DNA of 49,206 nt from Gemmatimonas sp. (GTDB lineage: Bacteria; Krumholzibacteriota; Krumholzibacteriia; LZORAL124-64-63). The notes beneath the pieces were generated by a model. It was not told where the DNA came from. It was given only the letters and a program-made list of their open reading frames with translations, and ran no database searches. Positions 11,185 to 32,247 of this stretch are shown piece after piece. The position numbers and the translations under genes were made by a program. Each line of letters opens with the position of its first letter. Position 1 is the first letter of the stretch. The stretch is from positions 1 through 49,206 of the forward strand of contig PNOJ01000008.1 of NCBI GenBank assembly GCA_013824755.1, read 5' to 3'.

Positions 11185-12369
11185 TCAGCCCACCACGAAC
11201 GCGTCGGCCTCGATGTCGCCCCGCGAGAAGCGGGCTAGCGACAGCGAGTCGATGATCGCGTCGGGTCCGCCGCCGGTGATCTGCTTCGCCAGGCGGGAGG
11301 CGGCCATCGGGGCCAACATGAAGCCGTGGCCGCTGTAGCCGCAGGCCATCTGGTAGCCCTCGAGGCCGGGGACGCCGCCCAGGATGGGGCGGTGGTCGGG
11401 GGTCACGTCGTACATGCCGGCCCACTGGCGCATCAGGCGCAGCTTGCGCGCCGGGGGCCAGTAGGCGGTCAGGGCGCGGGCGAAGCGCACCGCGAAACGC
11501 AGCTGGCTGCGCGTGTCGAACTGGGCGGGGCGGTCCCAGTGCGGTTCGTCCGGGTCGCCGATGCCGCCGACGATCTCCCCGCGCATGCTCTGGCTGAAGT
11601 AGATGCCGTCGCTGATGGAGATGACCATCGGGTCCAGGAACGGCTTGCACGATTCGCTGACCATGATCTCGTGGCGTTCCTGGCGGTTGGGCAGCTGCAC
11701 GCCGACCATCGCCGCCAGCGAGCGCGACCACGGCCCGGCGCAGTTGATCAGCAGCGGTGTCGAGATCTCGCCGCGGTCGGTGAGCACGCCGGTGATGCGG
11801 TCGCCGTCGTGCCGCACCTCGAGCAGGCGCGTGCGGATGAAGATCCGCACGCCGCGCCGCGTCGCGGCCTTCGCATAGCCCCACACCACGCTGAACGGGT
11901 AGGCGGTGCCGTCCTTCTGGCAGAAGGTCGCGCCCTTGAGGCGCGAGATGTCCAGCTGCGGCACGATGTCCAGGCACTCCCGCGGCTCCAGGTAGCGGCT
12001 GGGCACCTGGCAGGAGTTCTGCAGGGCGACGGCCTTGCGCAGGCTGTCGAGATGGGACTCGTCCTCGGTCACCATCAGGTAGCCGCCCTGGCGGAAGAAG
12101 GTCTGCAGGCCGAGTTCGCCGGCCAGGTGCTCGAAGGCGGCGACGCTCTCCTGGGCCAGGCGGATGTTCTCCGCGGTCGTCCACTGCTGGCGGATGCCGC
12201 CGCCGCAACGCCCGGTCGAGCCGCTGCCGAGGTAGTCCCTCTCCAGCACGACGAGGCGCTTCATGCCCCGCCGCGCCAGCTCGTAGGCGATGGCCAGGCC
12301 GTTGATGCCGCCGCCGACGATGACCGCGTCGGCCGTCGCGGGGACGGGCCCTTCGGGCAGGGGGATCAC
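11185..12369 (-). CDS. FAD-dependent oxidoreductase (DAO family; sarcosine oxidase beta / HcnC-like)
   Basis: ADAVIVGGGINGLAIAYELARRG; CGGGIRQQW; GYSGHGFMLAPMAASRLAKQI. Confidence 0.85.
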   Translation of the reverse strand: MIPLPEGPVPATADAVIVGGGINGLAIAYELARRGMKRLVVLERDYLGSGSTGRCGGGIRQQWTTAENIRLAQESVAAFEHLAGELGLQTFFRQGGYLMVTEDESHLDSLRKAVALQNSCQVPSRYLEPRECLDIVPQLDISRLKGATFCQKDGTAYPFSVVWGYAKAATRRGVRIFIRTRLLEVRHDGDRITGVLTDRGEISTPLLINCAGPWSRSLAAMVGVQLPNRQERHEIMVSESCKPFLDPMVISISDGIYFSQSMRGEIVGGIGDPDEPHWDRPAQFDTRSQLRFAVRFARALTAYWPPARKLRLMRQWAGMYDVTPDHRPILGGVPGLEGYQMACGYSGHGFMLAPMAASRLAKQITGGGPDAIIDSLSLARFSRGDIEADAFVVG

Positions 12370-12692
12370 GGGCCCACCTCCGGGTCGGTGCGGGGCAGCG
12401 CAGCCTCCAGTTCGCCCATCAAGGGCGGCAGGTCCAGGCTCGCCAGCTCCTCGAAGGTCAGCGGTTCGATGGGCGGGCGGATGTTCGTCAGCGGGATCTG
12501 CGCCGGGTCGACGCCGCGCAGGCGCGCCAGTTCCAGCGCGGACTCGCAGAGGCAGCCCTTGCCCTGGCAGAAGCCGGTGCCCACGCCGGTGAAGCGCTTG
12601 AGCGCCTCCATCTCGGCGAACCCGTCGCGGTAGGCCTTGCCGAACTCCTCGATGGTCACGTCTTCGCAGCGGCAGAGGATGCGCTTGCTCAT
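12366..12692 (-). CDS. BFD-like (2Fe-2S)-binding subunit
   Basis: MSKRILCRCEDVTIEEF...GVGTGFCQGKGCLCESALELA; ATGA overlaps with both neighbours. Confidence 0.85.
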   Translation of the reverse strand: MSKRILCRCEDVTIEEFGKAYRDGFAEMEALKRFTGVGTGFCQGKGCLCESALELARLRGVDPAQIPLTNIRPPIEPLTFEELASLDLPPLMGELEAALPRTDPEVGP

Positions 12693-14077
12693 GCCGTCAC
12701 CTCTTCCAGCAGGTCGGCGAGCGTGGCGCCGGCCGCCTCGCCGGCGATCGTCAGGTTCAGGCCGGCCGGGGTGCGGCCGTCCCAGCGTCCGCCGGCGGCG
12801 CGCGGCACGTAACCGCCGCGCAGGGGATCGAGCACGAGGTCGGCGCCGAGCTGGTAGGCCCCGTCGTAGACGGGCTTGCCGCGGCCGCAGATCACGGCGA
12901 TCTCGCAGGCGGATTCGGGGCGGGTCCCGTTGCGGCCGTCGTCGAAGCGCAGCGCGGCCAGCGAACCCGCGCGGCCGAGGGCGGCCAGCGGCCGCAGGCC
13001 CGTGCGCAGCTGCCAGCCGAGCCGCCGGGCGGTCGCCAGGGCGTTCTCGTCGGGTGCGGCGGTGGGATCCAGGGCCAGGACGACGCGAGCTCCGCGTGCG
13101 TGGAGCAGGGCGGCGCACAGCCACTGGTCCGGGCCGTGGCCCCAGACGACCACGGCGCGCCCGCGCAGGTCGATCCCGTCGCGCCCGGCCAGGCGGTACA
13201 GGGCGCGGGGCCCCAGGATGCCCGGCAGGTCGTGGTCGTCGAACAGGCCCAGCTGGTCCAGGGCTCCGGCCGCCCAGACGATGCGGTCGGCGCGCGCGAC
13301 GGACAGGCCCGCGGCGTCGCGCAGCAGCAGCATGTCGGGCTGGTAGCAGCCCACCACCGTGGTCGACGGCGCGCGGGTCACGTGGGGGGCGGCCGCGACC
13401 AGGGCGTCGCGCTCGTGCAGGAGCGCGCGCAGGCGCCGCAGGCGGTGCAGGCCGGCCAGCGGGTCGCCGTCCCCGGCGGCGGCGAGGTCGAGAGCCTCGC
13501 GGCGCTGGCCCCCGCCGTGGGCCGCATCGTCGATCAGCAGCGTGCGACCCTCGGCCGCCAGGGCGGCGGCCATTCCGGCCGCGCCGCCGCCGACCACCAC
13601 CGTGTCCCAGCGGCCGAGGTCGCGGGACCGCGGCGGGGGCGGCGCGGCCCGCCAGGCCGCCTCGTCGGGCAACCGGCCGATGCCGGTCACCGGGCGGATG
13701 ATGCGCATGAAGAGCTTCGACAGGGCCGCCGGCTTGGTGAACCACTTGTAGTAGAAGCCGACCGGCAGCAGGTGGCCGGTGCCGGACAACGCGGACTGCA
13801 TGGGGCGGCCGTAGGCGGCGCCGGCGTCCTGCCGGGCGACCCTGAGGCCTTCGTGGACCGGCGTGTGGCAGGCGCGGACGTTGGGGACGCCGTCGATGCG
13901 CATCAGGCAGCCCATGCAATGGCCGCGCGCGCACGAAGCGCCGCGGGGGCGGCCGTACTTGGGGCTGTGGGAGAGGACCTTGACGCCGTGGTCCCACAGG
14001 GCGGCCGCGACCGACTGGCCGGGGCGGCAGGCGAGGGGCTGGCCCTCGAACAGGATGGTCACGGCGGGATCGGCCAC
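12689..14077 (-). CDS. Sarcosine oxidase alpha/HcnAB-like FAD oxidoreductase with N-terminal 2Fe-2S domain
   Basis: GTG start; MADPAVTILFEGQPLACRPGQSVAAALW...CARGHCMGCLMRIDGVPNVRACHTPV; WDTVVVGGGAAGMAAALAA. Confidence 0.83.
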   Translation of the reverse strand: MADPAVTILFEGQPLACRPGQSVAAALWDHGVKVLSHSPKYGRPRGASCARGHCMGCLMRIDGVPNVRACHTPVHEGLRVARQDAGAAYGRPMQSALSGTGHLLPVGFYYKWFTKPAALSKLFMRIIRPVTGIGRLPDEAAWRAAPPPPRSRDLGRWDTVVVGGGAAGMAAALAAEGRTLLIDDAAHGGGQRREALDLAAAGDGDPLAGLHRLRRLRALLHERDALVAAAPHVTRAPSTTVVGCYQPDMLLLRDAAGLSVARADRIVWAAGALDQLGLFDDHDLPGILGPRALYRLAGRDGIDLRGRAVVVWGHGPDQWLCAALLHARGARVVLALDPTAAPDENALATARRLGWQLRTGLRPLAALGRAGSLAALRFDDGRNGTRPESACEIAVICGRGKPVYDGAYQLGADLVLDPLRGGYVPRAAGGRWDGRTPAGLNLTIAGEAAGATLADLLEEVTA

Positions 14078-14261
14078 GGGCGGCTCCTTTCGCGCGTCGG
14101 CGCAACGGTGCGAAACATAGGCCGGGCGGGGGTGGCGGGCAAGGCTGCTCCCGAGAAATGAGCGGGCGTTTTCTTCCCTTTGCGGCAGGCGGTCGCGGCG
14201 TATATTCGAGGTTACGCCGCTTTCCCGGGCCCGGGGCCCCGATCCGTGCAAGGAGCTGGAA

Positions 14262-15635
14262 ATGTCGTCGCAGAACTTCGCCGCCGTGCGCATGGAAGCC
14301 ATCGACCGGAAGATCGAGTTCGTGGACCTGAAGGTCCTGGACCTCGTCGGCCGCCTGCACCACATCACCTTCCCCTTCGACCGTTTCACGCCGGAGGTCA
14401 TGGGCGAGGGCATCGGCTTCGACGGCTCCAGCTACGGCTTTCTCAAGGTCGAGGACAGCGACATGGTCCTGCTGCCGGACCTCACCACGGCGCACGTCGA
14501 CCCGTTCCGCCAGCGCCCCACGCTGACGATGTTCGCCGAGGTCAAGCACGTCGACGCCGGCCGCACCCCCTTCGCGCAGGACGGCCGGACCATCGTGCGC
14601 GCCGCCGAGGGGCTGCTGCGGGAGATGGGCGTCGCGGACACCACGCGCTGGATCCCGGAGTACGAGTTCCACATCTTCGAGGAGGCGGACTTCGACTCGG
14701 GCAACACCAGCGCCCACTACCGGATGGAAAGCCGCGAACGCTTCTTCCAGAACGCCTACCACGCCTGCAACCCCCACGACCGCCACGACGACTTCCGCGA
14801 CGAGGTCTGCGCGGTCATGCGGGACTTCGACATCCCGGTCCGCTACCACCACCACGAGGTGGGGGCCAAGGCCCAGCAGGAGATCGAGGGCTGGTTCGAC
14901 GACCTGCCGACCACCTGCGACAACGCCGTGATGACGAAGTACATCCTGTTCAACCTCGCCGAGCGGCACGGCCTGCGGGTGACCTTCATGCCCAAGCCCC
15001 TGTTCGACAACGCGGGCAGCGGCTGGCACCTGCACCAGTACCTCATGAAGGACGGGCGCAACGTCTTCGACGACCCCGCCGGCTACGCCTCGCTCAGCCC
15101 GCTGGCCCTGAGCTACGTCGGCGGCGTGCTGCTGCACAGCCACGCGCTGTGCGCCTTCACCAATCCCAGCACCAATTCCTACAAGCGCCTGGTGCCCGGC
15201 TTCGAGGCGCCGACGGCGATCACCTTCGGGCGCAGCAACCGGGGCGCCGCCGTGCGCATCCCCAGCTACGTGGCCGATCCCCAGCACCGCCGCATGGAGT
15301 ACCGCCCGCCCGACTTCACCTGCAACCCCTACCTGGCCGCCTCGGCCATCCTGATGGCGGGCCTCGACGGCATCGTGCGCGGCCTCGATCCGCTGGCCGA
15401 CGGTTACTGCCCCGAGCACCCCCCGGCCGACGGCCGGCCCCACACCGTGGAGTTCCTGCCGCGCTCCCTGGACGACGCCCTGGACGCCCTGGAGGTCGAC
15501 CACGAGTTCCTGACGCGGGGCGGCGTGTTCCCCGAAGCCCTGATCACGCGCTGGCTGTCGATCAAGCGCGCGGAGATCCAGGCGATCAACCGCCGGCCGC
15601 ACCCCTACGAGTTCTCGATGTACTTCGATCTCTAG
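14262..15635 (+). CDS. glnA: Glutamine synthetase type I
   Basis: GFDGSSYGFLKVEDSDMVLLPD; ATFMPKP-like VTFMPKPLFDNAGSGWHLHQ; PSTNSYKRLVPGFEAP. Confidence 0.93.
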   Translation: MSSQNFAAVRMEAIDRKIEFVDLKVLDLVGRLHHITFPFDRFTPEVMGEGIGFDGSSYGFLKVEDSDMVLLPDLTTAHVDPFRQRPTLTMFAEVKHVDAGRTPFAQDGRTIVRAAEGLLREMGVADTTRWIPEYEFHIFEEADFDSGNTSAHYRMESRERFFQNAYHACNPHDRHDDFRDEVCAVMRDFDIPVRYHHHEVGAKAQQEIEGWFDDLPTTCDNAVMTKYILFNLAERHGLRVTFMPKPLFDNAGSGWHLHQYLMKDGRNVFDDPAGYASLSPLALSYVGGVLLHSHALCAFTNPSTNSYKRLVPGFEAPTAITFGRSNRGAAVRIPSYVADPQHRRMEYRPPDFTCNPYLAASAILMAGLDGIVRGLDPLADGYCPEHPPADGRPHTVEFLPRSLDDALDALEVDHEFLTRGGVFPEALITRWLSIKRAEIQAINRRPHPYEFSMYFDL

Positions 15636-15657
15636 ACCCCGGCGGCGGAGGTGGGGG

Positions 15658-16047
15658 ATGGTCGAATTCGAGGTGCGCACCGGCGCCCGCAACGCCTTTG
15701 TCGATATCACTTCTCAGGTTCAACGCGCCGTGGACGAAATAGGCCTGAACGACGGGGCGGTCCTGGTCTGGGTCCCCCACACCACGGCCGGCGTGACCGT
15801 CAACGAGGGCGCCGATCCCGACGTGGTCCGTGATATGATCGAGGCCCTGGACCGCGCCGTGCCCTGGGACGCCGGCTGGCGCCACGCCGAGGGCAACGCG
15901 GCGGCCCACGTCAAGAGCAGCCTGGTGGGCTGCGGCCAGCTGGTGCCGGTCGTCGGCGGCCGGATGGACCTGGGCGTCTGGCAGGCGGTCTGGTTCTGCG
16001 AGTTCGACGGTCCGCGTCGGCGCCGCGTGAGGGTTCACGCCGTCTGA
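15658..16047 (+). CDS. YjbQ/UPF0047 family protein (secondary thiamine-phosphate synthase-like)
   Basis: VWVPHTTAGVTVNEGADPDV; HVKSSLVGCGQLVPVVGGRMDLGVWQAVWFCEFDGPRRRRVRV. Confidence 0.85.
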   Translation: MVEFEVRTGARNAFVDITSQVQRAVDEIGLNDGAVLVWVPHTTAGVTVNEGADPDVVRDMIEALDRAVPWDAGWRHAEGNAAAHVKSSLVGCGQLVPVVGGRMDLGVWQAVWFCEFDGPRRRRVRVHAV

Positions 16048-16070: not shown

Positions 16071-16844
16071 GTGAAGGATCGCATCCACTACCATCGCGCC
16101 TACAAGCGGCTGGGGCCGGTGCGCCGGCTGCCCCTGGTCGCGCTGCTGCTGCTGGTGGCCCTGCTCGACGCGGCGATCGCCTGGTTCCACGCGCCCCTGC
16201 TGGGCGCCTTCGTCCGGCAGGTGGCGCGGATGGCGGACTGGGTGGGCGTGCGGACCGAGCTCACGCACTGGGAGTTCCTGCCGGTGTGGGTCACGCGCAT
16301 GCCCGTGCTGGACGCGGCGGGCGCCTTCCCCTCGCGCCGGCTGGCCCTGGTCACCTTCGTCACGTCGGTGCTGATCGTGGCGGTGCTGCCGCGCCTGCAT
16401 TTCGTGCCGAAGGTGCTGCGCGTCTACGCGGTGTTCCTGTCCCTGCTGAACCTGATCTCCGGCGCGTTCTTCGTGCTGGTGCCGCACCTGTTCCCCTACG
16501 ACGTGCTCGACTTCTCGCTGCTCTACATGGGCACCCAGTTCGGCATGTGGCTGCTGATGCCCGTGGTGATGGGCGTGGCGCTCTCGCCGCTGCAGACGCC
16601 GGTCTGGGAGCGCTTCGCGGTGATCCTGGCGACGCTGGGCTACGCGGCGCTGTTCGGCGCGGTGCGCTACGCCAGCTTCCTGTACCTGCTGCAGAAGCTG
16701 ACGGTGCTGCACATGGCGGCCATGTTCTTCGCCCTGGGCCCGCTGATCGACTTCGTCTACCTGGTGGCGATCTACTCGGTGTACATGAACGTCGTGGCCC
16801 TGCGGCTGCGCGACCGGCCGGAGACGTGGCGATGGTCGTTCTGA
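16071..16844 (+). CDS. Polytopic inner-membrane protein, first gene of exopolysaccharide-type operon
   Basis: 257 aa with multiple hydrophobic segments; GTG start; overlaps next gene. Confidence 0.65.
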   Translation: MKDRIHYHRAYKRLGPVRRLPLVALLLLVALLDAAIAWFHAPLLGAFVRQVARMADWVGVRTELTHWEFLPVWVTRMPVLDAAGAFPSRRLALVTFVTSVLIVAVLPRLHFVPKVLRVYAVFLSLLNLISGAFFVLVPHLFPYDVLDFSLLYMGTQFGMWLLMPVVMGVALSPLQTPVWERFAVILATLGYAALFGAVRYASFLYLLQKLTVLHMAAMFFALGPLIDFVYLVAIYSVYMNVVALRLRDRPETWRWSF

Positions 16845-18094
16845 TCCTCAAGCTGTACGTGCTGCTGGTGGTGCTGATCATGGCGATCTACGCCACGCGG
16901 CACTACCGGTTCACGGTCAACCGGCTCGTCGGCGACCAGCGCCTGTACTACCAGGACCTGATCGACTCGGACCTGCCGCGCATCTCGGTGCTGGTGCCGA
17001 TGCACGACGAGGAGAAGGTGGCCCGGCAGTCCCTCGAGGCGATCCTGCGCTGCGAGTACCCGCGCGGGCTGCTCGAGATCATCCCCATCAACGACCACTC
17101 CGGCGACGGCACCGCGGCGATCCTGGACGAGATGGCCGCCAAGCACGACGTCATCAAGCCGTTGCACCGCCACGAGGGCCAGCGCGGCAAGCCCGCCGCC
17201 CTCAACGACGCGCTGCTGGTGGCCGCGGCCGACGTGATCATCGTCTTCGACGCCGACTACCTGCCCGCCCGCGGATCGCTGCGCGACCTGGCGATCTCGT
17301 TCAAGGACCCGGAGGTCGGCGCGGTCATGGGGCGCGTGGTGCCGGTCAACACGCGCGCCAACCTGCTGACCCGCCTGCTCGATCTCGAACGCAGCGGCGG
17401 CTACCAGGTGGACCAGCAGGCCCGCCACAACCTGCACCTGATGCCGCAGTACGGCGGCACCGTCGGCGGTTTCCGGCGCGACCTGGCGCTCTCGTTCGGC
17501 GGCTTCGACCAGCGCGTGCTGGCCGAGGACACCGACCTGACCTACCGCCTGTTCATCAACGGCTGGAAGGTGGTCTACGCCAACCGCGTGGAGTGCTTCG
17601 AGGAGGTGCCCGAGACCTGGGAGGTGCGCTCGCGCCAGATCCGGCGCTGGTCGCGCGGGCACAACTACGTCATGTTCAAGCACTTCGGCGGGCTGCTGCG
17701 CTCGCCCTACCTGACGCGCGCCGAGAAGCTGGACGGCCTGCTGCTGCTGACGATCTACCTGGTGCCGGTCTTCCTGCTGACGGGCATCCTGGATTCCGTG
17801 GCGCTGTTCTTCATGGGCGAGATGCAGATCATCGACAGCGTGCTGGTGTTCCTGTTCGTGGCGACCTACAACTCCTTCGGCAACTTCGCGCCCTTCTACC
17901 AGATCGGCACCGCGTCGCTGCTCGACGGCGTCACCCACCGCATCCGCCTGCTGCCCTTCCTGATGTTCTACTTCCTCTTGAACATCTGGACGATCACGCA
18001 CGGGTTCCTGCAGGCCCTCGGCGACCGATTCTGGCGCCGCAAGCGCGCCGAGTGGGACAAGACCAAGCGCTTCCGCAAGGAGGCGGCCGCATGA
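16832..18094 (+). CDS. Processive glycosyltransferase family 2 (BcsA/PgaC-like)
   Basis: ISVLVPMHDEEKVARQSLEAILRCEYP; DADYLPARGSL; GGTVGGFRRDLAL; LAEDTDLTYRL; RQIRRWSRGHN (QxxRW), then TM segments. Confidence 0.9.
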   Translation: MVVLILKLYVLLVVLIMAIYATRHYRFTVNRLVGDQRLYYQDLIDSDLPRISVLVPMHDEEKVARQSLEAILRCEYPRGLLEIIPINDHSGDGTAAILDEMAAKHDVIKPLHRHEGQRGKPAALNDALLVAAADVIIVFDADYLPARGSLRDLAISFKDPEVGAVMGRVVPVNTRANLLTRLLDLERSGGYQVDQQARHNLHLMPQYGGTVGGFRRDLALSFGGFDQRVLAEDTDLTYRLFINGWKVVYANRVECFEEVPETWEVRSRQIRRWSRGHNYVMFKHFGGLLRSPYLTRAEKLDGLLLLTIYLVPVFLLTGILDSVALFFMGEMQIIDSVLVFLFVATYNSFGNFAPFYQIGTASLLDGVTHRIRLLPFLMFYFLLNIWTITHGFLQALGDRFWRRKRAEWDKTKRFRKEAAA

Positions 18095-19224
18095 CGCGAC
18101 GACTGGCCGGCCTGTCCCTGCTGCCCGCGACCGCCGTCACGGCGGGGGCCGCCACGCACGCGCTGTCCTTCGAGGCCGCGCTGCTGCTGGGCGCCTTCGG
18201 CCTGCTGATCCTGGTGCCCTTCATGCCGGGACTGATCGAGATCTGGCGCCCGCGCGACCGCTACCCGCTGCCGGTGGACATGGACTACGTCAAGGACCCG
18301 CGCCACCTGGGCCGCTCGGCCCGCGCGCTGCTGGCCGTCGCCCTGCGCGGCGACCAGGGCCCGGCGGGCCGCCGCACGGTGACCCTCTCGAAGGTCGAGG
18401 CGGTCGAGGTCCACGACCGGCTCGACGTCTCGGCCGGGGCCAACCTGTCGGCGATCCAGCTGGCCCGGGGCCCGATGGTCGTCGGCGAACGCGCGACCTG
18501 CGACCGCGACCTCTACGCCCGCGCCGGCGCCCGCATCGGCGAGGGCGCCGTCCTGCGCTCGCTGGCCTGCGACGGGCGCGCCGCGCTGGGTCGCGGCGTG
18601 AGCATCGCCCGCTGGCTCGACGTCGAGGGCGACGTCCACGTCGGACCGCAGTCGCACCTCGGCGCCAGCGCGGCGGCCGCGGGCTTCCTGGAGCTGGCCG
18701 ACGGGGTGACGTTCGAGCGGCTGTGGGGTTCGCCCGTGCGCACGACGGGCTACCGCGGGCCGCGCGAACTGCCGCCGGCCCCGGCGCCGTTCGCGTTGCC
18801 CGACGTGCTGGAGATCCGCGATCTCGAGGACCTGGCGAGCCTGCACCGGGGCGACCTGGTCGTCGGGCCGGGCGAGACCTTCGACCGCCCGCTGGTGGTC
18901 AGGGGCGACCTGCGGATCGAGACCGACGCGGTCGTCGACCGCACGGTCAAGGTGTACGGCGACCTGACCCTGGCGCCCGGGGCGCTGCTGCTCGGCGACG
19001 CCTTCGTCGAAGGTTCGGTGTTCGTGGGCGAGGGGGCGGCCGTGCGCGGCTGCATCTTCTCGCAGGACTCCGTGGAACTGGGCCGCGGGGCGCGCGTGGG
19101 CGCGCCGGGCCTGGTCAAATCGGTGGTCGGCAAGCGCAGCGTGACGCTGGCCGGCGACGTCGCCATCCATGGGTACGTGCTGACCGACGGCCGGGGATGC
19201 GTGATATGCCGCGGCTCGGACTGA
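18091..19224 (+). CDS. Membrane-anchored polymer-forming/bactofilin-like beta-helix protein
   Basis: N-terminal TM; two stretches of GD(L/V)xIxxxAxV-type repeats (VVRGDLRIETDAVVDRTVKVYGDLTLAPGALLLGDAFVEGSVFVGEGAAV). Confidence 0.6.
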   Translation: MTRRLAGLSLLPATAVTAGAATHALSFEAALLLGAFGLLILVPFMPGLIEIWRPRDRYPLPVDMDYVKDPRHLGRSARALLAVALRGDQGPAGRRTVTLSKVEAVEVHDRLDVSAGANLSAIQLARGPMVVGERATCDRDLYARAGARIGEGAVLRSLACDGRAALGRGVSIARWLDVEGDVHVGPQSHLGASAAAAGFLELADGVTFERLWGSPVRTTGYRGPRELPPAPAPFALPDVLEIRDLEDLASLHRGDLVVGPGETFDRPLVVRGDLRIETDAVVDRTVKVYGDLTLAPGALLLGDAFVEGSVFVGEGAAVRGCIFSQDSVELGRGARVGAPGLVKSVVGKRSVTLAGDVAIHGYVLTDGRGCVICRGSD

Positions 19225-21056
19225 TCCTGGCCCTGATCGCCTGCGTCGCCGTGGCGGTCTACGGCGTGGGCGTCCTGCGCCACGTCGGGCGCGAGGCCGA
19301 GCGCGGCGACCTGCGCGTGCTGGTGGGCTACAACCCCTCGCTCATGGACGAGAGCGGGGACGTCGTCGCGGCCTGGCGCAGCGTGCTGGAGGAGGAGGGC
19401 GTCGCGGCCCAGGCCCTCGACCTCTACACCCTGCTGGACCTCGACCCGGCGGCGACCGTGGCCGCCTGCCCCGCGCTGATCCTGCCCGACGGGGTCTGCC
19501 GCCGCCTGAACTCCTCGCTCGAACCCTGGCTGGACGCCTACCTGCGCGCCGGCGGCTCCCTGATGGTCGTCTACGACGCCGGCATCAAGAGCCTCAAGGG
19601 CGCCTACCTGCCGCGCAGCTACCTGTCGCGCTTCACCGGCGTCCAGCACGTGGACTACACCGACGGCGGCCAGGACAGCTACACCACCGGCGCGCTGCGC
19701 TTCGCCGACGCGGCCGCCGCCCGCACCTGCCAGATCCCGCCGGGCAAGCTGGCCCCCGACCTGACCGTCACCGGCTACAGCTACGGCCGCCTGCGCTACC
19801 CCGTCGCCCGCACGCGGCTCGAGGCCGACGACGCGCGCGTGCTGGCCTGGGCCGTCACCGACGACAACCGCGAGCACCCGGCGATCGTCGCCCGCGCCTA
19901 CGGGGCCGGCCGCTGCCTGCACGTGAACCTGCCGCTGGGACACCTCAAGTCGCACGCCGACGACCTGCCGCTGCGCGCGATCGCGCGCTGGTGGCTGCTG
20001 GACGAGGTGGGCCTGCCCTGCCTGATGAGCGCGCCGCGCGGCGTCGGCGGCCTGGTCCTGAACTGGCACGTCGACGGCAACGGCGACTGGCCCTACCTGG
20101 ACGACATGGTCGCCCGCGGCCTCTTCCGCCGCGACCTGCCCGCCTCGATCCACGTCTGCGCCGGCCCCGACCTGAACGCGCCGGGCGACGGCGACGGCTT
20201 CGACGCCTGCGGGAAGGGGCGCCGCCAGCTCGAGGCGCTGGCCGGCCTGGGCGAGATCGGCTCGCACGGCGGCTGGACCCACAACCTGTTCTCCGCCGAG
20301 GTGCTGGCCGGGCGCTGGGGTGCGACCGAGGCGGGCGACGCCGTGCGCCGCAACCGCGACTGCCTGCGCGAGGTCGTCGGCCGACCCGTCGCGGAATACT
20401 CCGCGCCCGACGGCGTGCACCCGCCGCACCTGATGACGCCGCTGCTCGAGGAGCTGGGCTTCACCTGCTACTACACCACCAGCGACATCGGCAGCGCGCC
20501 CAACCGCAGCTTCAGCGACGGGCGGCGCCTGTCGGACCTGCTGATCGCCTTCCCGGTCATGCCCCTGCGCGACGTGGCGAGCTTCGGGGAGATGGACACC
20601 AAGCACCGCCTGGACAGCGGCGAGGTGGCGGCCTGGCTGGACGGGATGCTGGACTACTGCGAACGCAACCGCGCGGTGCGCCTGATGTACTCGCACCCCT
20701 ACAACCTCTACCTGTACCACGGCGACCAGGACTACCTGCCCGCCTACGCCGCCTGGCTGGACGAGCTGGCGGCGCGCTGCCGCGACGGCCGGCTGCAGGT
20801 GCGCCCGATGCGCGAGTTCGCCGACTTCCAGCTGCGGATGCTGGCGACCGAGGCGACCTGGCGGGTCGCCGACGGGGAACTGCGGCTGCACCTGCGCAAC
20901 CCGCGCGGCCTGCGCGACCTGGCCTTCAGCGTGCCGGCCGGCCGCTGGCGGGCCCCGACGGCGCCCTACCTGCGCGCCACCACCGGCGACGGGCGCCACG
21001 TGGTGGTGATCGAGGATGACGCGCGCGAGATGGATGTGGTGCTGCATGCTCGCTAG
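19206..21056 (+). CDS. Signal-anchored polysaccharide deacetylase-like protein with N-terminal GATase-like region
   Basis: LILALIACVAVAVYGVGV anchor; NWHVDGNGDWPYLDDMVARGLF...IGSHGGWTHN...EYSAPDGVHPPHLMTPLLEELGFTCYYTTSD (CE4-like). Confidence 0.7.
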   Translation: MPRLGLILALIACVAVAVYGVGVLRHVGREAERGDLRVLVGYNPSLMDESGDVVAAWRSVLEEEGVAAQALDLYTLLDLDPAATVAACPALILPDGVCRRLNSSLEPWLDAYLRAGGSLMVVYDAGIKSLKGAYLPRSYLSRFTGVQHVDYTDGGQDSYTTGALRFADAAAARTCQIPPGKLAPDLTVTGYSYGRLRYPVARTRLEADDARVLAWAVTDDNREHPAIVARAYGAGRCLHVNLPLGHLKSHADDLPLRAIARWWLLDEVGLPCLMSAPRGVGGLVLNWHVDGNGDWPYLDDMVARGLFRRDLPASIHVCAGPDLNAPGDGDGFDACGKGRRQLEALAGLGEIGSHGGWTHNLFSAEVLAGRWGATEAGDAVRRNRDCLREVVGRPVAEYSAPDGVHPPHLMTPLLEELGFTCYYTTSDIGSAPNRSFSDGRRLSDLLIAFPVMPLRDVASFGEMDTKHRLDSGEVAAWLDGMLDYCERNRAVRLMYSHPYNLYLYHGDQDYLPAYAAWLDELAARCRDGRLQVRPMREFADFQLRMLATEATWRVADGELRLHLRNPRGLRDLAFSVPAGRWRAPTAPYLRATTGDGRHVVVIEDDAREMDVVLHAR

Positions 21057-21915
21057 CGCGGCGCTCCTGACGCTGTCGGGCGGCTGCGCCGGGCACCGCG
21101 ACCCGGCGCTGGCGGTCGTGAACTGGTTCGAGCCCCTCGACGGCGGGCGCGACCACGTGAGCCCGTACTTCACGAACCTCTACGCCCTGTCGCTGGTGCG
21201 CCACGGGCTCGGGGCGGGCGAGGTGCGAGGCTACGTGGCCTGGTACCTGGACCACCTGAACTACCCGGACCGCCACGGCCTGACCGGCACCATCGACGAC
21301 ATGGTCGTGCGGCCGGGCGGCCGCCTCGAGCGCACCGGCCGCTACGATTCGGTCGACGGCTACGCCGGCACCTTCCTGCTGCTGCTGGACGAGTGGGAGC
21401 AGGCCGGCGGCGACCGCGCGCTGCTGGAGGCGAACCGCTCGCGCATCCAGGACGTGGCCTGGCTGCTGCTGCGCCTGCAGGATCCCGACGGGCTGGTGCG
21501 CGCGCTGCCGGACGCGAACGCGCGCTACCTGATGGACAACTGCGAGGCCTACGCGGGGTTGCTGGCCTACGACGCCCTGAGCCGGCGCCTGGGCTGGGAC
21601 ACCGGGCCGCGCCACCGCATCGCGGCCGAGGACGTCCGCGAGGCCGTGCTGGGCCGCCTGTCCGACGGGCCGGGACGGCGCTTCCACTGGGCGGACGCCG
21701 GCGGCGTGCCGCACCGGTCCGATTGGGACGTGTTCTACCCGGATGCGCTGGCCCAGCTGTTCCCGATCCTGTACGGTGTGGTGGACGCCCGCTCGGATCT
21801 GGCGCAGCACCTGTGGCGGGAGTTCGCGCAGCGCCACGACCCGCGCGCGGGACAGCCGGTCTCGGCGGTCCAGCGCGCCATCATCGACCTGACCAGGGAG
21901 CGAGTGACGCCGTGA
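21016..21915 (+). CDS. Predicted lipoprotein with glycoside-hydrolase-like alpha/alpha-barrel sequence
   Basis: ASAALLTLSGGCAGHRD lipobox; aromatic-rich repeats (YVAWYLDHLNYPDRHGLTGTIDD...YDSVDGYAGTFLLLLDE). Overlaps the previous CDS by 41 bp; the true start could be internal. Confidence 0.6.
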   Translation: MTRARWMWCCMLASAALLTLSGGCAGHRDPALAVVNWFEPLDGGRDHVSPYFTNLYALSLVRHGLGAGEVRGYVAWYLDHLNYPDRHGLTGTIDDMVVRPGGRLERTGRYDSVDGYAGTFLLLLDEWEQAGGDRALLEANRSRIQDVAWLLLRLQDPDGLVRALPDANARYLMDNCEAYAGLLAYDALSRRLGWDTGPRHRIAAEDVREAVLGRLSDGPGRRFHWADAGGVPHRSDWDVFYPDALAQLFPILYGVVDARSDLAQHLWREFAQRHDPRAGQPVSAVQRAIIDLTRERVTP

Positions 21916-22748
21916 GCCACACGACACTGCGATCCGTCCTGCTCGCCGCCGGCCTCGCGGCGCTGTCGCTGACCGGGGCCGCGGGCGCGCACGCCGCCGG
22001 GGGCGCCGAGGAGTGGGCCCGCCTGCGCGGGGCTCCGGGCTACCGCCTGGACGTCGACCTGCTGCTGGACCGCCTCGACCCGCAGGACCTCTACGGGAAC
22101 TGGGCGACCGGCACGGCCACGCTCTACGTGAAGACACTGCCGCGCCTGACGCCGTTCGTGCAGGTGTCGTTGCTGGAGCGGGAGGACGTCGACGCGGGCT
22201 TCTCCGTCGGCACCTACGCCGACTGGACCAGCCGCCTGTACTCGTCCACCTCGTTCACCGCCGGCGGTCGTTCGCACTACCTGCAGAAGAACCGCTGGGA
22301 CCATTCCTTCTTCCTGAACACCGGCCCGGTCACCCTGGTCGCCGGCGCCGGCTGGCTGCAGGACCACGACGGGCACGAGGACTGGTCGCTCGCCTTCGGC
22401 CCGCGTCTGTGGCGGGGCCGCCTGATCCTCGAGTACCTCGCGACCCGCACCGCCAGCGATCCGGGCGACCACGTCGGCTGGAAGCACCGGGTGTCCGGCG
22501 GCTGGGGGGAGGAGGGCCGCAGTTGGCTCTTCCTGAACCTCACCGTCGGCCAGGAGCGCTACGCCGCCACCTGGGTGACGCCGGCCCAGGACGTCGACCA
22601 CGATTTCTACGAGGTCGCGGCGAGCCTGCAGCGTTGGGTGCGTCCGCGCCTGGGCTACAAGCTGCAGGCGGGCTGGCTGGACCTGGGCGAGGGGTTGGAC
22701 GGCTACGAGAAGCTCGGCGTCGGCGCTGGCGGTTTCCTCGAATTTTGA
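21912..22748 (+). CDS. YaiO-like outer-membrane beta-barrel protein
   Basis: Signal peptide, alternating amphipathic strands, C-terminal Phe (GGFLEF); GTGA overlap with previous gene. Confidence 0.7.
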   Translation: MSHTTLRSVLLAAGLAALSLTGAAGAHAAGGAEEWARLRGAPGYRLDVDLLLDRLDPQDLYGNWATGTATLYVKTLPRLTPFVQVSLLEREDVDAGFSVGTYADWTSRLYSSTSFTAGGRSHYLQKNRWDHSFFLNTGPVTLVAGAGWLQDHDGHEDWSLAFGPRLWRGRLILEYLATRTASDPGDHVGWKHRVSGGWGEEGRSWLFLNLTVGQERYAATWVTPAQDVDHDFYEVAASLQRWVRPRLGYKLQAGWLDLGEGLDGYEKLGVGAGGFLEF

Positions 22749-24911: not shown

Positions 24912-26399
24912 ATGAGCGCCGCCACCCACAGCCGTACCGCGCCCGAGGATCGGATCAAGTTCTCCCACAAGCTGGCCTACGGCGCCGGCGCCTTCGTGAA
25001 CAACCTCCTGTCGGCGGCCATCGGCGGCATGATGATCATCCTGAACCTCGGGTTGCACATGGACCCGCGGATGGTCGGCTGGGTCAGCGCGCTGCCGCGC
25101 CTGGTCGACACGATCATCGATCCGATCATGGGCTACGTCTCGGACAACACGCGCTCGCGCTGGGGCCGACGCCGTCCTTTCATCTTCGTCGGCGCGATCC
25201 TGACGGCCGTGGTCTTCGCGCTGTTGTGGCAGCTGCCGCGCGGCGCCAGTCAGAACTTCTACTTCGTGTGGTTCCTGGTCGGGTCGGTCCTCTTCTACAT
25301 CTGCTACACGATCTTCGTCGCGCCGTGGGTCGCGCTGGGCTACGAGCTGACCCCCGACTACAACGAGCGCACGCGCCTGATGGGCACCCAGAACTTCATC
25401 GGGCAGTTCGCCTACGTGGTCTCGCCGTGGTTCCTGTGGATCATGAACGGCGGCAGATTCGGCGACCAGATCGCCGGCGCGGGCTGGCTGGCCATCGCGG
25501 TGGCGCTATGCACGGTGGCGTTGGGCGTGCTGCCGGCCGTCTTCCTGCGCGAGCGCATGGCCTCGCTGGCGACGACCGCGATCGCCGCGCACAAGGCCGA
25601 GGCCGCCGTGCGCACCGGCAACCCGATCGTGCGCAACGTCAGCGAGTTCTTGCGCGGCTTCGCCTCGACGATGTCCACGATCCCGTTCCTGAAGCTGTGC
25701 CTGGCCACGTTCCTGGTCTTCAACGGCTTCATCCTGATCTCGGCGTTTTCCAGCTACGTGATCATCTACTACGTGTCGGGTGGCGACCAGGTCCTGGGCG
25801 CGAAGTGGGTGGGCCTGTCCGGCACGGTGGGCGCTGTCGGCAGTTTCGGCGCGGTGGCCCTGGTGACCGTCCTGGCTACCCGCATCGGCAAGCGCCGCGC
25901 CTTCATGATCTCGACGGCCGTCTCGATGGTCGGGTACGCGCTCAAGTGGGTCTGCTTCAACCCGGCACACCCCTGGATGGTGCTGTTGCCGGCCCCGCTG
26001 CTCGCCTTCGGACTGGGCGGCCTGTTCACGCTGATGCCGTCGATGATCGCCGACGTCGTCGACGCCGACGAACTGAAGACCTACCAGCGGCGCGAGGGCA
26101 TGTTCAGCTCCGTCTTCTGGTTCACCGTGAAGCTGGGCCTGACCGCCGCTCTGGCCGGCGGCGGCTACCTGCTCAGCGCCACGGGGTTCGATGTGGCGCG
26201 GGGCGGCGCGCAGGGTCACCAGACCATCGTCCTGCTGCGCTTCTTCGACGCGGGCATCCCCGTCGTGACATCGGCGATCGCCATCTGGGCCGTGGCGACC
26301 TACCCCATCACGGAAGCCAGGGCCCTGTCCGTCCGCCAGGAACTCGAAAGCCGCCGCGGGCGGCCGGGGGCCGCCGCCCCCGCGGCCGGGGACTCGTGA
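24912..26399 (+). CDS. MFS/GPH-family sugar:cation symporter
   Basis: KLAYGAGAFVNNLLSAAIGGMM...RLVDTIIDPIMGYVSDNTRSRWGRRRPFIFVGA. Confidence 0.88.
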   Translation: MSAATHSRTAPEDRIKFSHKLAYGAGAFVNNLLSAAIGGMMIILNLGLHMDPRMVGWVSALPRLVDTIIDPIMGYVSDNTRSRWGRRRPFIFVGAILTAVVFALLWQLPRGASQNFYFVWFLVGSVLFYICYTIFVAPWVALGYELTPDYNERTRLMGTQNFIGQFAYVVSPWFLWIMNGGRFGDQIAGAGWLAIAVALCTVALGVLPAVFLRERMASLATTAIAAHKAEAAVRTGNPIVRNVSEFLRGFASTMSTIPFLKLCLATFLVFNGFILISAFSSYVIIYYVSGGDQVLGAKWVGLSGTVGAVGSFGAVALVTVLATRIGKRRAFMISTAVSMVGYALKWVCFNPAHPWMVLLPAPLLAFGLGGLFTLMPSMIADVVDADELKTYQRREGMFSSVFWFTVKLGLTAALAGGGYLLSATGFDVARGGAQGHQTIVLLRFFDAGIPVVTSAIAIWAVATYPITEARALSVRQELESRRGRPGAAAPAAGDS

Positions 26400-27466
26400 G
26401 CCCCCCGGCGCCGACACCGCGCCGGCGGGTCACGGCGAGGGCGGCCGCGCGGCCGGGCCGCCGCACGTCGGTCCTGTGCGCAGCCCTGCTGGCCGCGATG
26501 CTGGTCGGAACCGCCGAAAGGAGCCGTGCCGTGCCGACTACCGATCGTTTCCCCCGCGAGGATCCCTTCCGGCCGCGCCCGTTCCCGTCGCCGGCGGAGA
26601 GTCGCTGGACCGGCGACGCCATCTGCTACGGCCCTCACCGCGACGGGCAGTCACCCGGGGGGGACGGCCCTTCCCCCGCGGAGATCGGCGAGGACCTCCG
26701 GTTGATGGGTCCCCGCTGGCGCCTGCTGCGGACCTACGGGGCGTCCGGGTTCGCCGAGACGCTCCTGGCCCTGATCCGCGAGCGGGGACTGGACATGCGG
26801 GTGATGCTGGGCGTGTGGATCGCGCCGGACGACACGTCGGCGAACCGGCACGAGGTCGAGGCGGCCGTGCGCCTGGCGGCCGTCTACCCCGAGCTCGTGG
26901 TCGCCGTCTGTGTCGGCAACGAGACCCAGGTTTCCTGGTCCGGCTACCGCTGCGCGCCGGAGCTCCTCCTGGGCTACCTGCGCGAAGTGCGCTCCCGCGT
27001 CACCGTCCCGGTGACGACGGCCGACGACATCAAGTACTGGGTCGAACCCGAGAGCCGCGCGGTGGCGGACGAGATCGATTTCATCACCTTGCACGCGCAT
27101 CCCCTGTGGAACGGCAAGCAGCTGGCGGAGGCTGCGGCGTGGTTGCACGAGCGGACGGCGGCGGTCGCGGCGCTCCATCCGGATCGCTCCGTCGTGATCG
27201 GTGAAACGGGCTGGGCCACCGCGGTTCATGTCGAGGGGGAGCAGGCCCGGCTGATCAAAGGTCGGACCGGCGAAACGGAGCAGAAGCGGTTCTATGACGA
27301 AGTCCGGGCCTGGGCCGAGAGCGCGCGGCGGACCGTGTTCTTCTTCGAGGCCTTCGACGAGAACTGGAAGGGCGGGCCGCACCCGGACGAGGTCGAGAAG
27401 CACTGGGGGCTGTTCCGAGCCGACAGGTCGCCGAAGGCGGCGGTGGCTCCGGGCGCCGACCGCTAA
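26396..27466 (+). CDS. Secreted GH17-like (beta-1,3-glucanase-type) glycoside hydrolase
   Basis: GTGA overlap with MFS gene; signal sequence; RLLRTYGASGFAETLL; VAVCVGNETQVSW; VVIGETGWAT; FFFEAFDENWK. Confidence 0.75.
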   Translation: MSPPAPTPRRRVTARAAARPGRRTSVLCAALLAAMLVGTAERSRAVPTTDRFPREDPFRPRPFPSPAESRWTGDAICYGPHRDGQSPGGDGPSPAEIGEDLRLMGPRWRLLRTYGASGFAETLLALIRERGLDMRVMLGVWIAPDDTSANRHEVEAAVRLAAVYPELVVAVCVGNETQVSWSGYRCAPELLLGYLREVRSRVTVPVTTADDIKYWVEPESRAVADEIDFITLHAHPLWNGKQLAEAAAWLHERTAAVAALHPDRSVVIGETGWATAVHVEGEQARLIKGRTGETEQKRFYDEVRAWAESARRTVFFFEAFDENWKGGPHPDEVEKHWGLFRADRSPKAAVAPGADR

Positions 27467-29616: not shown

Positions 29617-30975
29617 TCAGAGGACCTCGAACGTGGTGACGTGGGTGTTGATCTGCACGGGCTCGGATTCCTCGCGCGGCACGTTCATGTATTCGGCCAC
29701 CGAGGAGACCAGGCGCGAGTACCAGACCTCGGCCTTCACGGTCATCGGCCCCGGCGCCGCGTCCTGCGGCAGCTTCCAGGTGAAGGTCTCGTTCACCGCG
29801 GCCAGCGGCGCCAGCCGGTAGTCCGGCCCGAACGAGGCCGTGTTCCACTGCGCGATGGTCATGCGGCCCTGGGGGTCGAGGTAGGGCAGGCGGAAGATGC
29901 GGTCGCCCGCCGGCACCTCGCCGTCCCGCTTCAGTCCCGGGAAGCCGGCCAGGCCCTTGATGTCGCCGATGTCCTGGTAGGCCAGCGCGGTCGCCGAGGC
30001 GATCGTCATCTCCTCGCCCGCGAAACCCTTCGCGTCGACGGGCAGGTGCCAGGTGCGGCCCGCGGCGTCGGTGGCGGTCACGTGCAGCCAGAGCACGCGC
30101 TCCTCGGCCGACCCCGACGGCACCTTGTGGCCGGCCTTCGCGTTGACCAGGGTCGCGGTCAGCCGCACGCTGTCGCCGGGCTCGGCTTCGCGGGACTCGG
30201 GGTGGATGCGCACTTCGATCACGCCGGCTAGCTTGCCGTTGTCGTGGGCGCCGTGGAAGAGGTGCTGGCGCACGTCGGGCAGCGGTTCGCCCATCGTCGC
30301 GCTGCGCCCGGCCGCCGGGGGCATGTGGCAGTCCTGGCAGACGATGCCGGCCCTGCCGTGCGGGCCTTCCTGCCACTCCAGGTGCGTGCTCTTGACCCAC
30401 AGGCCCCAGGGGTCCTGCTCGTTGTGGCAGGTGCCGCAGAACTCGGCGGTGCGCAGGAACGGGTTCTCGACGGTGTCGTGGTGCGGGCTGACCCGGCCCG
30501 CCCGCGGCCCCTGCTTGACCCGGCCCGGCTCGCTGATCCAGTTGAAGTTGAAGGGCGTGTCGCCCTCGAAGCCCGTGATCGTGTGGCAGAGGTCGCACGA
30601 CACGCTCTCGTTGGCGCGCGAGCCGGCCTCGGGGTGCGGCGGCGGCACGTCGCCGGCCAGGAACGCGACGGGCGCGTGGCAGCCGTTGCAGCCGGCCTTC
30701 ACGCCGGCGACCTTCGGCTCCTTCTCGGCGTGCGGCACCGCGAGGCCGAAGTACTCGATGGCGTCCCAGTGGTGCGTGTAGGCCTGCGACATCATCGCCT
30801 GCTCGTGCTGGCGGGCGATGTCGACGTGGCACGTGGCGCAGGCCTGCGGGCGCTCGTAGTCGTCGTAACTGCGCGTGCCGAGCGCGGCGTCGCCGGCGGG
30901 CGTCGCCGCGAAGGCCGCGACGGCGAGCAGCAACAGCGCCGGGCACAGCGCCGCGAACCGATGTGGAAATCGCAT
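29617..30975 (-). CDS. Secreted multiheme (five CxxCH) cytochrome c
   Basis: Motifs CATCH, CNGCH, CDLCH, CGTCH, CQDCH; signal MRFPHRFAALCPALLLLAVAAFAA; GGAGGT RBS. Confidence 0.88.
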   Translation of the reverse strand: MRFPHRFAALCPALLLLAVAAFAATPAGDAALGTRSYDDYERPQACATCHVDIARQHEQAMMSQAYTHHWDAIEYFGLAVPHAEKEPKVAGVKAGCNGCHAPVAFLAGDVPPPHPEAGSRANESVSCDLCHTITGFEGDTPFNFNWISEPGRVKQGPRAGRVSPHHDTVENPFLRTAEFCGTCHNEQDPWGLWVKSTHLEWQEGPHGRAGIVCQDCHMPPAAGRSATMGEPLPDVRQHLFHGAHDNGKLAGVIEVRIHPESREAEPGDSVRLTATLVNAKAGHKVPSGSAEERVLWLHVTATDAAGRTWHLPVDAKGFAGEEMTIASATALAYQDIGDIKGLAGFPGLKRDGEVPAGDRIFRLPYLDPQGRMTIAQWNTASFGPDYRLAPLAAVNETFTWKLPQDAAPGPMTVKAEVWYSRLVSSVAEYMNVPREESEPVQINTHVTTFEVL

Positions 30976-31116
30976 CTTGACCTCCGGATCGATGTCGGCG
31001 GGCGGAGCCGTGGACCTTGGCGAGGTTGCCAGTCGAGGGTAGGCCCGCGTCGATCGGGCGTCAAGCGGATGAAACGGCGATTTCAACGGCCGGCGCCGGC
31101 CGGCCGGACGGCGACG

Positions 31117-32247
31117 TCAGGCTCTTGCCTGCAGGAACCGGCGGCACGCCGTCACGATCCTGCCGGTGGCCAGGCCGTCGCCGTAGGGGTTGATCGCGCG
31201 GGCCATCGCGGCGTGGGCCGCGGGGTCGGCCAGCAGGCGCGTCGCCTCGGCGACCAGCAGCTCCTCGTCGGTGCCGACCAGCTTCACGGTGCCGGCCGAC
31301 ACGGCCTCGGGCCGCTCGGTCGTCGCGCGCATCACCAGCACCGGTTTGCCGAGGCTCGGCGCCTCCTCCTGCACGCCGCCCGAGTCGGTCAGGATCAGCG
31401 TGGCGCGGTCCATCAGCCGCACGAAGGGCAGGTAGGGCAGGGGCGCGATGAGGTGGACGTTGTCCAGGCCGCCGAGCAGCTCGTTCACCGGCGCCTGGAC
31501 GTGCGGGTTCAGGTGCACGGGGTAGACGAAGGCGTGGCCGGGGAAGCCGCGCGCCAGGCGGGCGATGCCGCGGCAGACGGCGCGGAAGCCTTCGCCGAAG
31601 TTCTCGCGGCGGTGGCCGGTGATCAGCACCAGCGGCCGCGCGCCGTCGACCAGGTCCGCCGGCAGGCCGGGCACTTCCGGCGGCGAGGCCAGCACGCGCC
31701 CGCGGGCGATCAGCAGCGCGTCGATGACGGTGTTGCCGGTGACGTGCACACGGGCGCCGGGGACGCCCTCGCCCAGCAGGTTGTCGCGGGAGGTGGTGGT
31801 CGGCGCGAAGTGCAGGTCGGCGAGCCGCGTCGTGAGCAGGCGGTTGGCCTCCTCCGGGAACGGCGCGCGCAGGTCGCCGGTGCGCAGGCCGGCCTCGACG
31901 TGCCCCACCGGGATGCCGCGGTAGAAGGCGGCCAGGGCGGCGCAGAAGACCGTGGTGGTATCGCCCTGAACCAGGACCAGGTCGGGCTGCGCCCGCTGCA
32001 GGTAGCCGTCGACGGCCGCCACGGCACGCGAGGTCAGGCCGGCCAGCGTCTGGTCGGGGCGCATCAGGTCCAGGTCGTCGTCCGGGACGATGCCGAAGAT
32101 GGCCAGCACCTGGTCGAGCATCTCGCGGTGCTGGGCCGTGACGCAGACGTGGGGTTCGAGGTCCGGCTCGGCGCGCAGGGCCAGGACGAGCGGGGCCAGC
32201 TTGATGGCCTCGGGACGGGTGCCGAAGATGAGCGATACGCGGGACAT
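31117..32247 (-). CDS. wecB: UDP-N-acetylglucosamine 2-epimerase (non-hydrolysing)
   Basis: MSRVSLIFGTRPEAIKLAPLV; VQGDTTTVFCAALAAFY; HVEAGLRTGD; LTDSGGVQEEAPSLGKPVLVMR. Confidence 0.93.
   Translation of the reverse strand: MSRVSLIFGTRPEAIKLAPLVLALRAEPDLEPHVCVTAQHREMLDQVLAIFGIVPDDDLDLMRPDQTLAGLTSRAVAAVDGYLQRAQPDLVLVQGDTTTVFCAALAAFYRGIPVGHVEAGLRTGDLRAPFPEEANRLLTTRLADLHFAPTTTSRDNLLGEGVPGARVHVTGNTVIDALLIARGRVLASPPEVPGLPADLVDGARPLVLITGHRRENFGEGFRAVCRGIARLARGFPGHAFVYPVHLNPHVQAPVNELLGGLDNVHLIAPLPYLPFVRLMDRATLILTDSGGVQEEAPSLGKPVLVMRATTERPEAVSAGTVKLVGTDEELLVAEATRLLADPAAHAAMARAINPYGDGLATGRIVTACRRFLQARA

Follow-up and report, generated by a model that had tools for sequence, protein, structure and literature searches.

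The stretch of DNA analyzed here (the window, 49,206 nucleotides) is one contig (PNOJ01000008.1) of a 2.46-Mb, 84% complete assembly (GCA_013824755.1) named Gemmatimonas sp. and placed in the phylum Krumholzibacteriota. On its plus strand, six consecutive open reading frames (ORFs), designated A to F, were found at positions 16071-22748 (Table 1). All five junctions overlap, by 13, 4 (ATGA), 19, 41, and 4 nt (GTGA) from A/B to E/F; two further in-frame starts of E lie at 21031 and 21046, and the D/E overlap would be 11 nt if the ATG at 21046 were used. Since long antisense ORFs are expected in a genome of 70% GC, coding was judged by protein conservation, and all six proteins proved 46–78% identical in a genome of another genus (G005), with the gene order unchanged. 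The six overlapping genes are thus real and conserved. The original prediction, which had read them from the nucleotide sequence as an overlapping operon for exopolysaccharide (EPS) synthesis and secretion, was borne out as to the operon, and its list of parts also held when families and fold models were checked.

Table 1. Genes of the A–F operon and two linked genes of the window
Feature	Position	Strand	Remarks
Gene A, polytopic inner-membrane protein, no known family	16071..16844	+	GTG start, 257 aa
Gene B, processive-type glycosyltransferase family 2 (GT2) polysaccharide synthase	16832..18094	+	420 aa; motifs DAD, AED, QIRRW
Gene C, N-terminal transmembrane (TM) segment and bactofilin/hexapeptide-like β-helix	18091..19224	+	377 aa; TM 31-49
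Gene D, membrane-anchored three-domain deacetylase-like protein	19206..21056	+	616 aa; AlphaFold2 (AF2) model and Foldseek
Gene E, lipoprotein (Cys24), (α/α)-barrel, glycosidase-like fold	21016..21915	+	299 aa; AF2 model and Foldseek
Gene F, YaiO-family outer-membrane β-barrel with signal peptide	21912..22748	+	GTG start, 278 aa; TIGR04390, PF19413
wecB, UDP-GlcNAc 2-epimerase, linked, outside operon	31117..32247	-	TIGR00236, PF02350
UPF0047 (YjbQ-like) gene	15658..16047	+	PF01894, 140 bits

In the phylum, sampled as 80 species with one genome each, the same A to F order was shared by three further genomes of the genus and by G005. Strong matches to D, A, E, and F were obtained in 8, 7, 7, and 8 genomes, respectively, nearly the same ones each time, and the cassette was present in up to nine of the 80, with identical order where contigs allow. 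Partial cassettes lie at contig ends in G017, G030, G013, and G022; F directly follows D in G013, where E is missing, and the remaining gaps fall in fragmented assemblies. Outside the phylum, tblastn and profile comparisons located all six genes on the megaplasmid pMTS1 of Cupriavidus sp. P-10 in the order wecB-D-B-C-E-F-A, with identities of 29–31% for D and 49% for B. No other D was found in the plasmid collection.

Protein B has membrane segments at both ends and matched Pfam PF13641 with 104.8 bits. Its closest curated family was PgaC_IcaA, aligned over nearly the full length at 133.3 bits versus a cut-off of 422.3, and it was 43–50% identical to the GT2 proteins of related loci versus 29% to E. 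coli PgaC; identities of 43–59% join the members of this group. GT2 is an inverting family, and QxxRW, the signature of processive synthases, was kept in all 17 cluster members aligned. Because a tree of the GT2 proteins left PgaC, YaiP, and NfrB unplaced, on branches of 7–10 changes per column, the group was argued from identity rather than from the tree, in which Cupriavidus stood apart from the window group. The polytopic protein A, without a family match, was linked to its Cupriavidus homologue by profile comparison and to the homologues of G028 and of enterics through a chain of weak pairwise matches; direct profile comparison with the 242-aa protein of E. fergusonii was negative, that link running via the G028 and Cupriavidus intermediates. 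These sequence comparisons identify A as a predicted core partner of the synthase B.

In protein C, one clear TM segment is followed by an Arg-rich stretch and then by the hexapeptide/bactofilin-like β-helix, which, by the positive-inside rule, probably faces the cytoplasm. With 14 bits, C falls below the cut-off of the bactofilin family PF04519 (27.9 bits), which is passed by a plasmid relative (31.0 bits). Protein F exceeded both YaiO cut-offs (PF19413, 26.5 vs 23.9 bits; TIGR04390, 78.5 vs 32 bits), confirming the YaiO-like barrel.

The bactofilin-like gene had been singled out at the outset as unusual for such pathways, and was instead revealed to be a core part: orthologous GT2 genes (E ≤ 1e-90) occur in 15 phylum genomes, and C adjoins the synthase gene in every one of them. 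Nine of these GT2-C loci were read with profiles built in this analysis. All nine contained B-C-A, and seven contained B-C-A-F. Of the other two, G011 has a contig that stops about 1 kb beyond A, and G020 has a YaiO gene on a different contig. D and E were absent from all nine. In several core loci a small anchored protein precedes B, twice with a 3-keto-disaccharide-hydrolase-like domain; in G020 (L091:6637-8826) such a domain and the GT2 are joined in a single 729-aa frame. Large polytopic proteins stand beside the YaiO gene in core-only loci (L093:8796-11000, L090:11419-13344, and L092:4843-6756), one of the three giving a GT-C (PMT) match.

The neighborhood search proposed with the original prediction thus yielded the cassette in the phylum and Cupriavidus, and a wider GT2-C-A-YaiO core that extends to enterics, including rare E. 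coli strains. A conjugative plasmid of E. fergusonii (NZ_CP057682.1 7080-13705) carries C, wecB, F, A, an acyltransferase gene, E, and B, and a related cluster of bactofilin, wecB, YaiO, A-like, acyltransferase, E-like, and GT2 genes lies in an E. coli chromosome (NZ_CP196316.1 1581446-1588357). The annotated gene set of E. coli AH19B041 is the same as that of the E. fergusonii plasmid cluster, and among 5,426 E. coli genomes one more has a match to its start. The E-like gene of the enteric clusters is annotated only as hypothetical. From these loci, B, C, A, and F were taken as the core, and D, E, and the others as exchangeable modules.

Neither D nor E gave a family match above cut-off. The AF2 model of D (predicted local distance difference test, pLDDT, 85.4; predicted template modeling score, pTM, 0.86) comprises a TM helix, an α/β/α domain (~35-240), a carbohydrate esterase (CE) domain (~280-545), and a C-terminal β domain (~549-616). 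Foldseek aligned it with ArnD and CE4 deacetylases and, separately, with GH42/ThuA glutamine amidotransferase-like domains. Residues H288, D290, H354, H359, P401, R434, and H497 were invariant in the phylum. An anchored three-domain layout has been described for Agd3 (PMC7229062), and PelADA of Bacillus cereus is a 610-residue, singly anchored, three-domain enzyme (PMC13254593); both de-N-acetylate N-acetylgalactosamine (GalNAc) polymers (PMC13254593, PMC7229062). When the secondary structure of the model and the Foldseek results were compared with the published layout, D was predicted to have the PelADA/Agd3 architecture. The anchored deacetylase fold expected for D was therefore retained, and its architecture was found to be that of Agd3/PelADA, not that of PgaB.

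The lipobox residue Cys24 of E was invariant in six relatives, and the AF2 model (pLDDT 76, pTM 0.78) had MmpH, GH105, and GH78 as top Foldseek matches. E thus models as an (α/α)-barrel related in fold to glycosidases, in agreement with the α/α-barrel-like lipoprotein first suggested. When D, E, F, and A were compared as sequence profiles with Protein Data Bank sequences, no credible match emerged, D being too distant in sequence from Agd3-type enzymes for one; the matches to phycobiliprotein, Src, and 2gnx in these searches were rejected as chance.

The window also carries a wecB gene (TIGR00236, 471.8 bits vs a cut-off of 210), 8.4 kb downstream of the operon and convergent with it. The gene lies 1.8 kb from the core in G001 and 3 kb in G005; in G028, G011, G020, G043, Cupriavidus, and the enterics it adjoins the core or is no more than about 1.2 kb away. 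In the phylum, five of the ten genera having the core have wecB within about 9 kb of it; by our own estimate, wecB would fall in a 10-kb neighborhood by chance in about 1–2% of genomes (1–3 wecB genes in 3–4 Mb). WecB has been postulated to supply UDP-N-acetylmannosamine (UDP-ManNAc) to NfrB for the NGR glycan of E. coli (PMC8669472). On the basis of the wecB linkage and this analogy, UDP-ManNAc would be the likeliest donor, a choice we make tentatively, with UDP-N-acetylglucosamine (UDP-GlcNAc) and UDP-GalNAc as alternatives; an N-acetylmannosamine polymer is accordingly the preferred, though unproven, product.

The operon probably encodes synthase-dependent machinery dedicated to the synthesis, modification, and export of a polymer of N-acetylhexosamine. 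The computations show the genes and their overlaps, conservation as a set, the GT2 motifs, the folds of D and E, the core in several phyla, and the wecB linkage; which sugar is used, which way export runs, what D and E do, and what parts C and A play are inferred. B would polymerize a UDP-sugar and, jointly with A, pass the chain across the inner membrane, while C, a membrane-tethered β-helix probably facing the cytoplasm, may scaffold or position the synthase. On the periplasmic side, the membrane-anchored D would remove some of the N-acetyl groups, the lipoprotein E may trim or bind the polymer, and the barrel F would complete passage through the outer membrane.

Several observations weigh against this scheme. 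De-N-acetylases of families CE4, CE18, CE21, and CE26 have a metal triad (Asp, His, His) and a catalytic His. D keeps H288/D290, H354/H359, and H497 throughout the phylum, but its putative metal site has HxD where known enzymes have DD/DxD, and H-x4-H instead of H-x3-H; in the Cupriavidus D (L021:11893-13674), a Cys replaces the invariant D290. Confidence in the E model is only moderate. A demonstrated export function for YaiO barrels was not found in the literature, and the wecB of the window itself, convergent and beside alaS at 8.4 kb, may be coincidental there.

Published synthase-dependent systems combine an inner-membrane synthase, a cyclic di-GMP (c-di-GMP) co-polymerase, periplasmic modifying enzymes, and a tetratricopeptide repeat (TPR) protein with an outer-membrane pore (PMC7112194). 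Against this scheme, the operon has the synthase, modifying enzymes, and barrel, and neither a c-di-GMP module nor a TPR was detected among A to F in Pfam and NCBIfam scans. The same scans found no PilZ domain in B and no BcsB or BcsC family in A to F, and B reached 42 bits versus 699 for CelA. The NGR system (NfrA-NfrB-WecB), with its proposed ManNAc polymer, likewise pairs a GT2 with WecB (PMC8669472), but NfrB is larger and c-di-GMP-activated and NfrA is a large outer-membrane protein; by BLAST, NfrB had no significant similarity to B and showed only about 26% identity over part of the G028 relative of B.

The E. coli yaiS-yaiP-yaiX-yaiO locus (NC_000913.3 380069-384616) resembles the operon in uniting a GT2, a hexapeptide-repeat protein, a YaiO barrel, and a deacetylase. 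However, A and E are not annotated there, YaiP is 25% identical to B and lacks QxxRW, and YaiO, though of the same family as F, showed no BLAST similarity to it, so that orthology of the two loci was rejected. In MG1655, yaiX is split by IS2; 4913 of 5426 E. coli genomes have a match to the yaiO-yaiX sequence.

With E. coli PgaABCD and staphylococcal Ica, the operon has in common a membrane GT2 of the nearest curated family, a periplasmic deacetylase, and an outer-membrane barrel. A divergent poly-β-1,6-N-acetylglucosamine (PNAG) system, with B related to PgaC and D standing in for the deacetylase domain of PgaB to give ordinary PNAG, would fit the nearly full-length PgaC_IcaA alignment, and the amino-sugar polymer that it puts out would be partly deacetylated. 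We nevertheless consider it unlikely: B lies far under the PgaC cut-off and is much closer to its own group than to E. coli PgaC, the scans of A to F found neither a TPR nor a PgaD family, the PgaA TPR porin being absent from the operon, C, A, and E are extra, the domain layout of D differs, and linkage to wecB is unexpected for PNAG.

Still less probable is a device for surface-glycan modification, in which the GT2 attaches a short glycan to lipid, lipopolysaccharide, or protein and E and F remodel it. The small barrel without a TPR scaffold and the GT-C type membrane proteins adjoining F in several core-only loci would suit it; the processive signature of B, kept in all 17 aligned cluster members, and the layout of D, which is that of polymer-acting enzymes, argue for a polymer. 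The lowest probability was given to a Pel- or galactosaminogalactan-like system that produces a GalNAc polymer and in which D plays the part of PelADA/Agd3. D does share the anchored α/β/α, CE, and β-sandwich architecture, and nearly the size (616 vs 610 aa), of these enzymes (PMC13254593, PMC7229062). Yet, compared with PelABCDEFG of P. aeruginosa and PelDEADAFG of B. cereus, the polymerase is a GT2 instead of the GT4 PelF, an α-1,4 chain built from UDP-GalNAc is not expected of the inverting GT2 family, and most core loci are without D. Family scans of A to F found no PelB, PelC, PelD, PelE, PelG, or PelA-type hydrolase domain, and no GT4 PelF, PelG, PelD, or GH114 hydrolase was present in the operon or the scanned neighbors (14.3-32 kb).

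Bacterial agd3-like genes have already been noted in uncharacterized EPS operons (PMC7229062), and part of the idea is therefore not new. D has the same three-domain architecture as Agd3/CE18; a gene for GH114 and outer-membrane genes of Pel type are typical of those operons, and neither was seen here. In the open-licence literature, we found no description of the GT2-C-A-YaiO core, its spread, or its wecB linkage. The original statement that Pga, Pel, and Bcs partners are missing was upheld, the operon encoding no TPR porin, c-di-GMP module, PelF/PelG, or BcsB. Profile, structure, and neighborhood comparisons did not place the genes clearly in any established pathway of identical gene order, the outcome named at the outset as refuting the prediction. 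By these tests, the operon is none of Pga, Pel, Bcs, NGR, and the E. coli yai locus.

Beyond a dedicated N-acetylhexosamine polymer system, the loci might represent a new class of synthase-dependent EPS machine shared by unrelated phyla, whose product would be a poly-N-acetylmannosamine, perhaps partly deacetylated. In it, a bactofilin-like scaffold would stand in for the c-di-GMP co-polymerase and a YaiO barrel for the TPR porin, a reading we hold possible but doubtful. The loci give a genomic context to three families so far without one in such a setting, namely YaiO barrels, protein A, and the bactofilin-like C. They also outline a modular scheme in which the four core genes are constant and the periplasmic enzymes interchangeable (deacetylase and (α/α)-barrel; keto-disaccharide-hydrolase-like domain; acyltransferase). 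The tie of a bactofilin-type protein to a polysaccharide synthase is directly testable, the wecB-linked synthase offers a concrete guess at the sugar, and the presence of the core in culturable Cupriavidus and Escherichia makes the question answerable at the bench.

Around the operon, the UPF0047 gene, itself preceded by a glutamine synthetase gene, ends 23 nt upstream of A and is probably on the same transcript; it occupies the equivalent place in G001, G002, G003, G005, and G017. The interval 11185-16047 holds FAD-oxidase-like genes on the minus strand followed by this glutamine synthetase and UPF0047 pair directly upstream of A, and the two are conserved operon neighbors in other genera too. 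Downstream, at 2–4 kb from the operon, a major facilitator superfamily sugar transporter gene (24912-26399) is followed by one for a GH17-like glycoside hydrolase (26423-27466), and a multihaem cytochrome-like protein is encoded at 29617-31086, between the operon and wecB.

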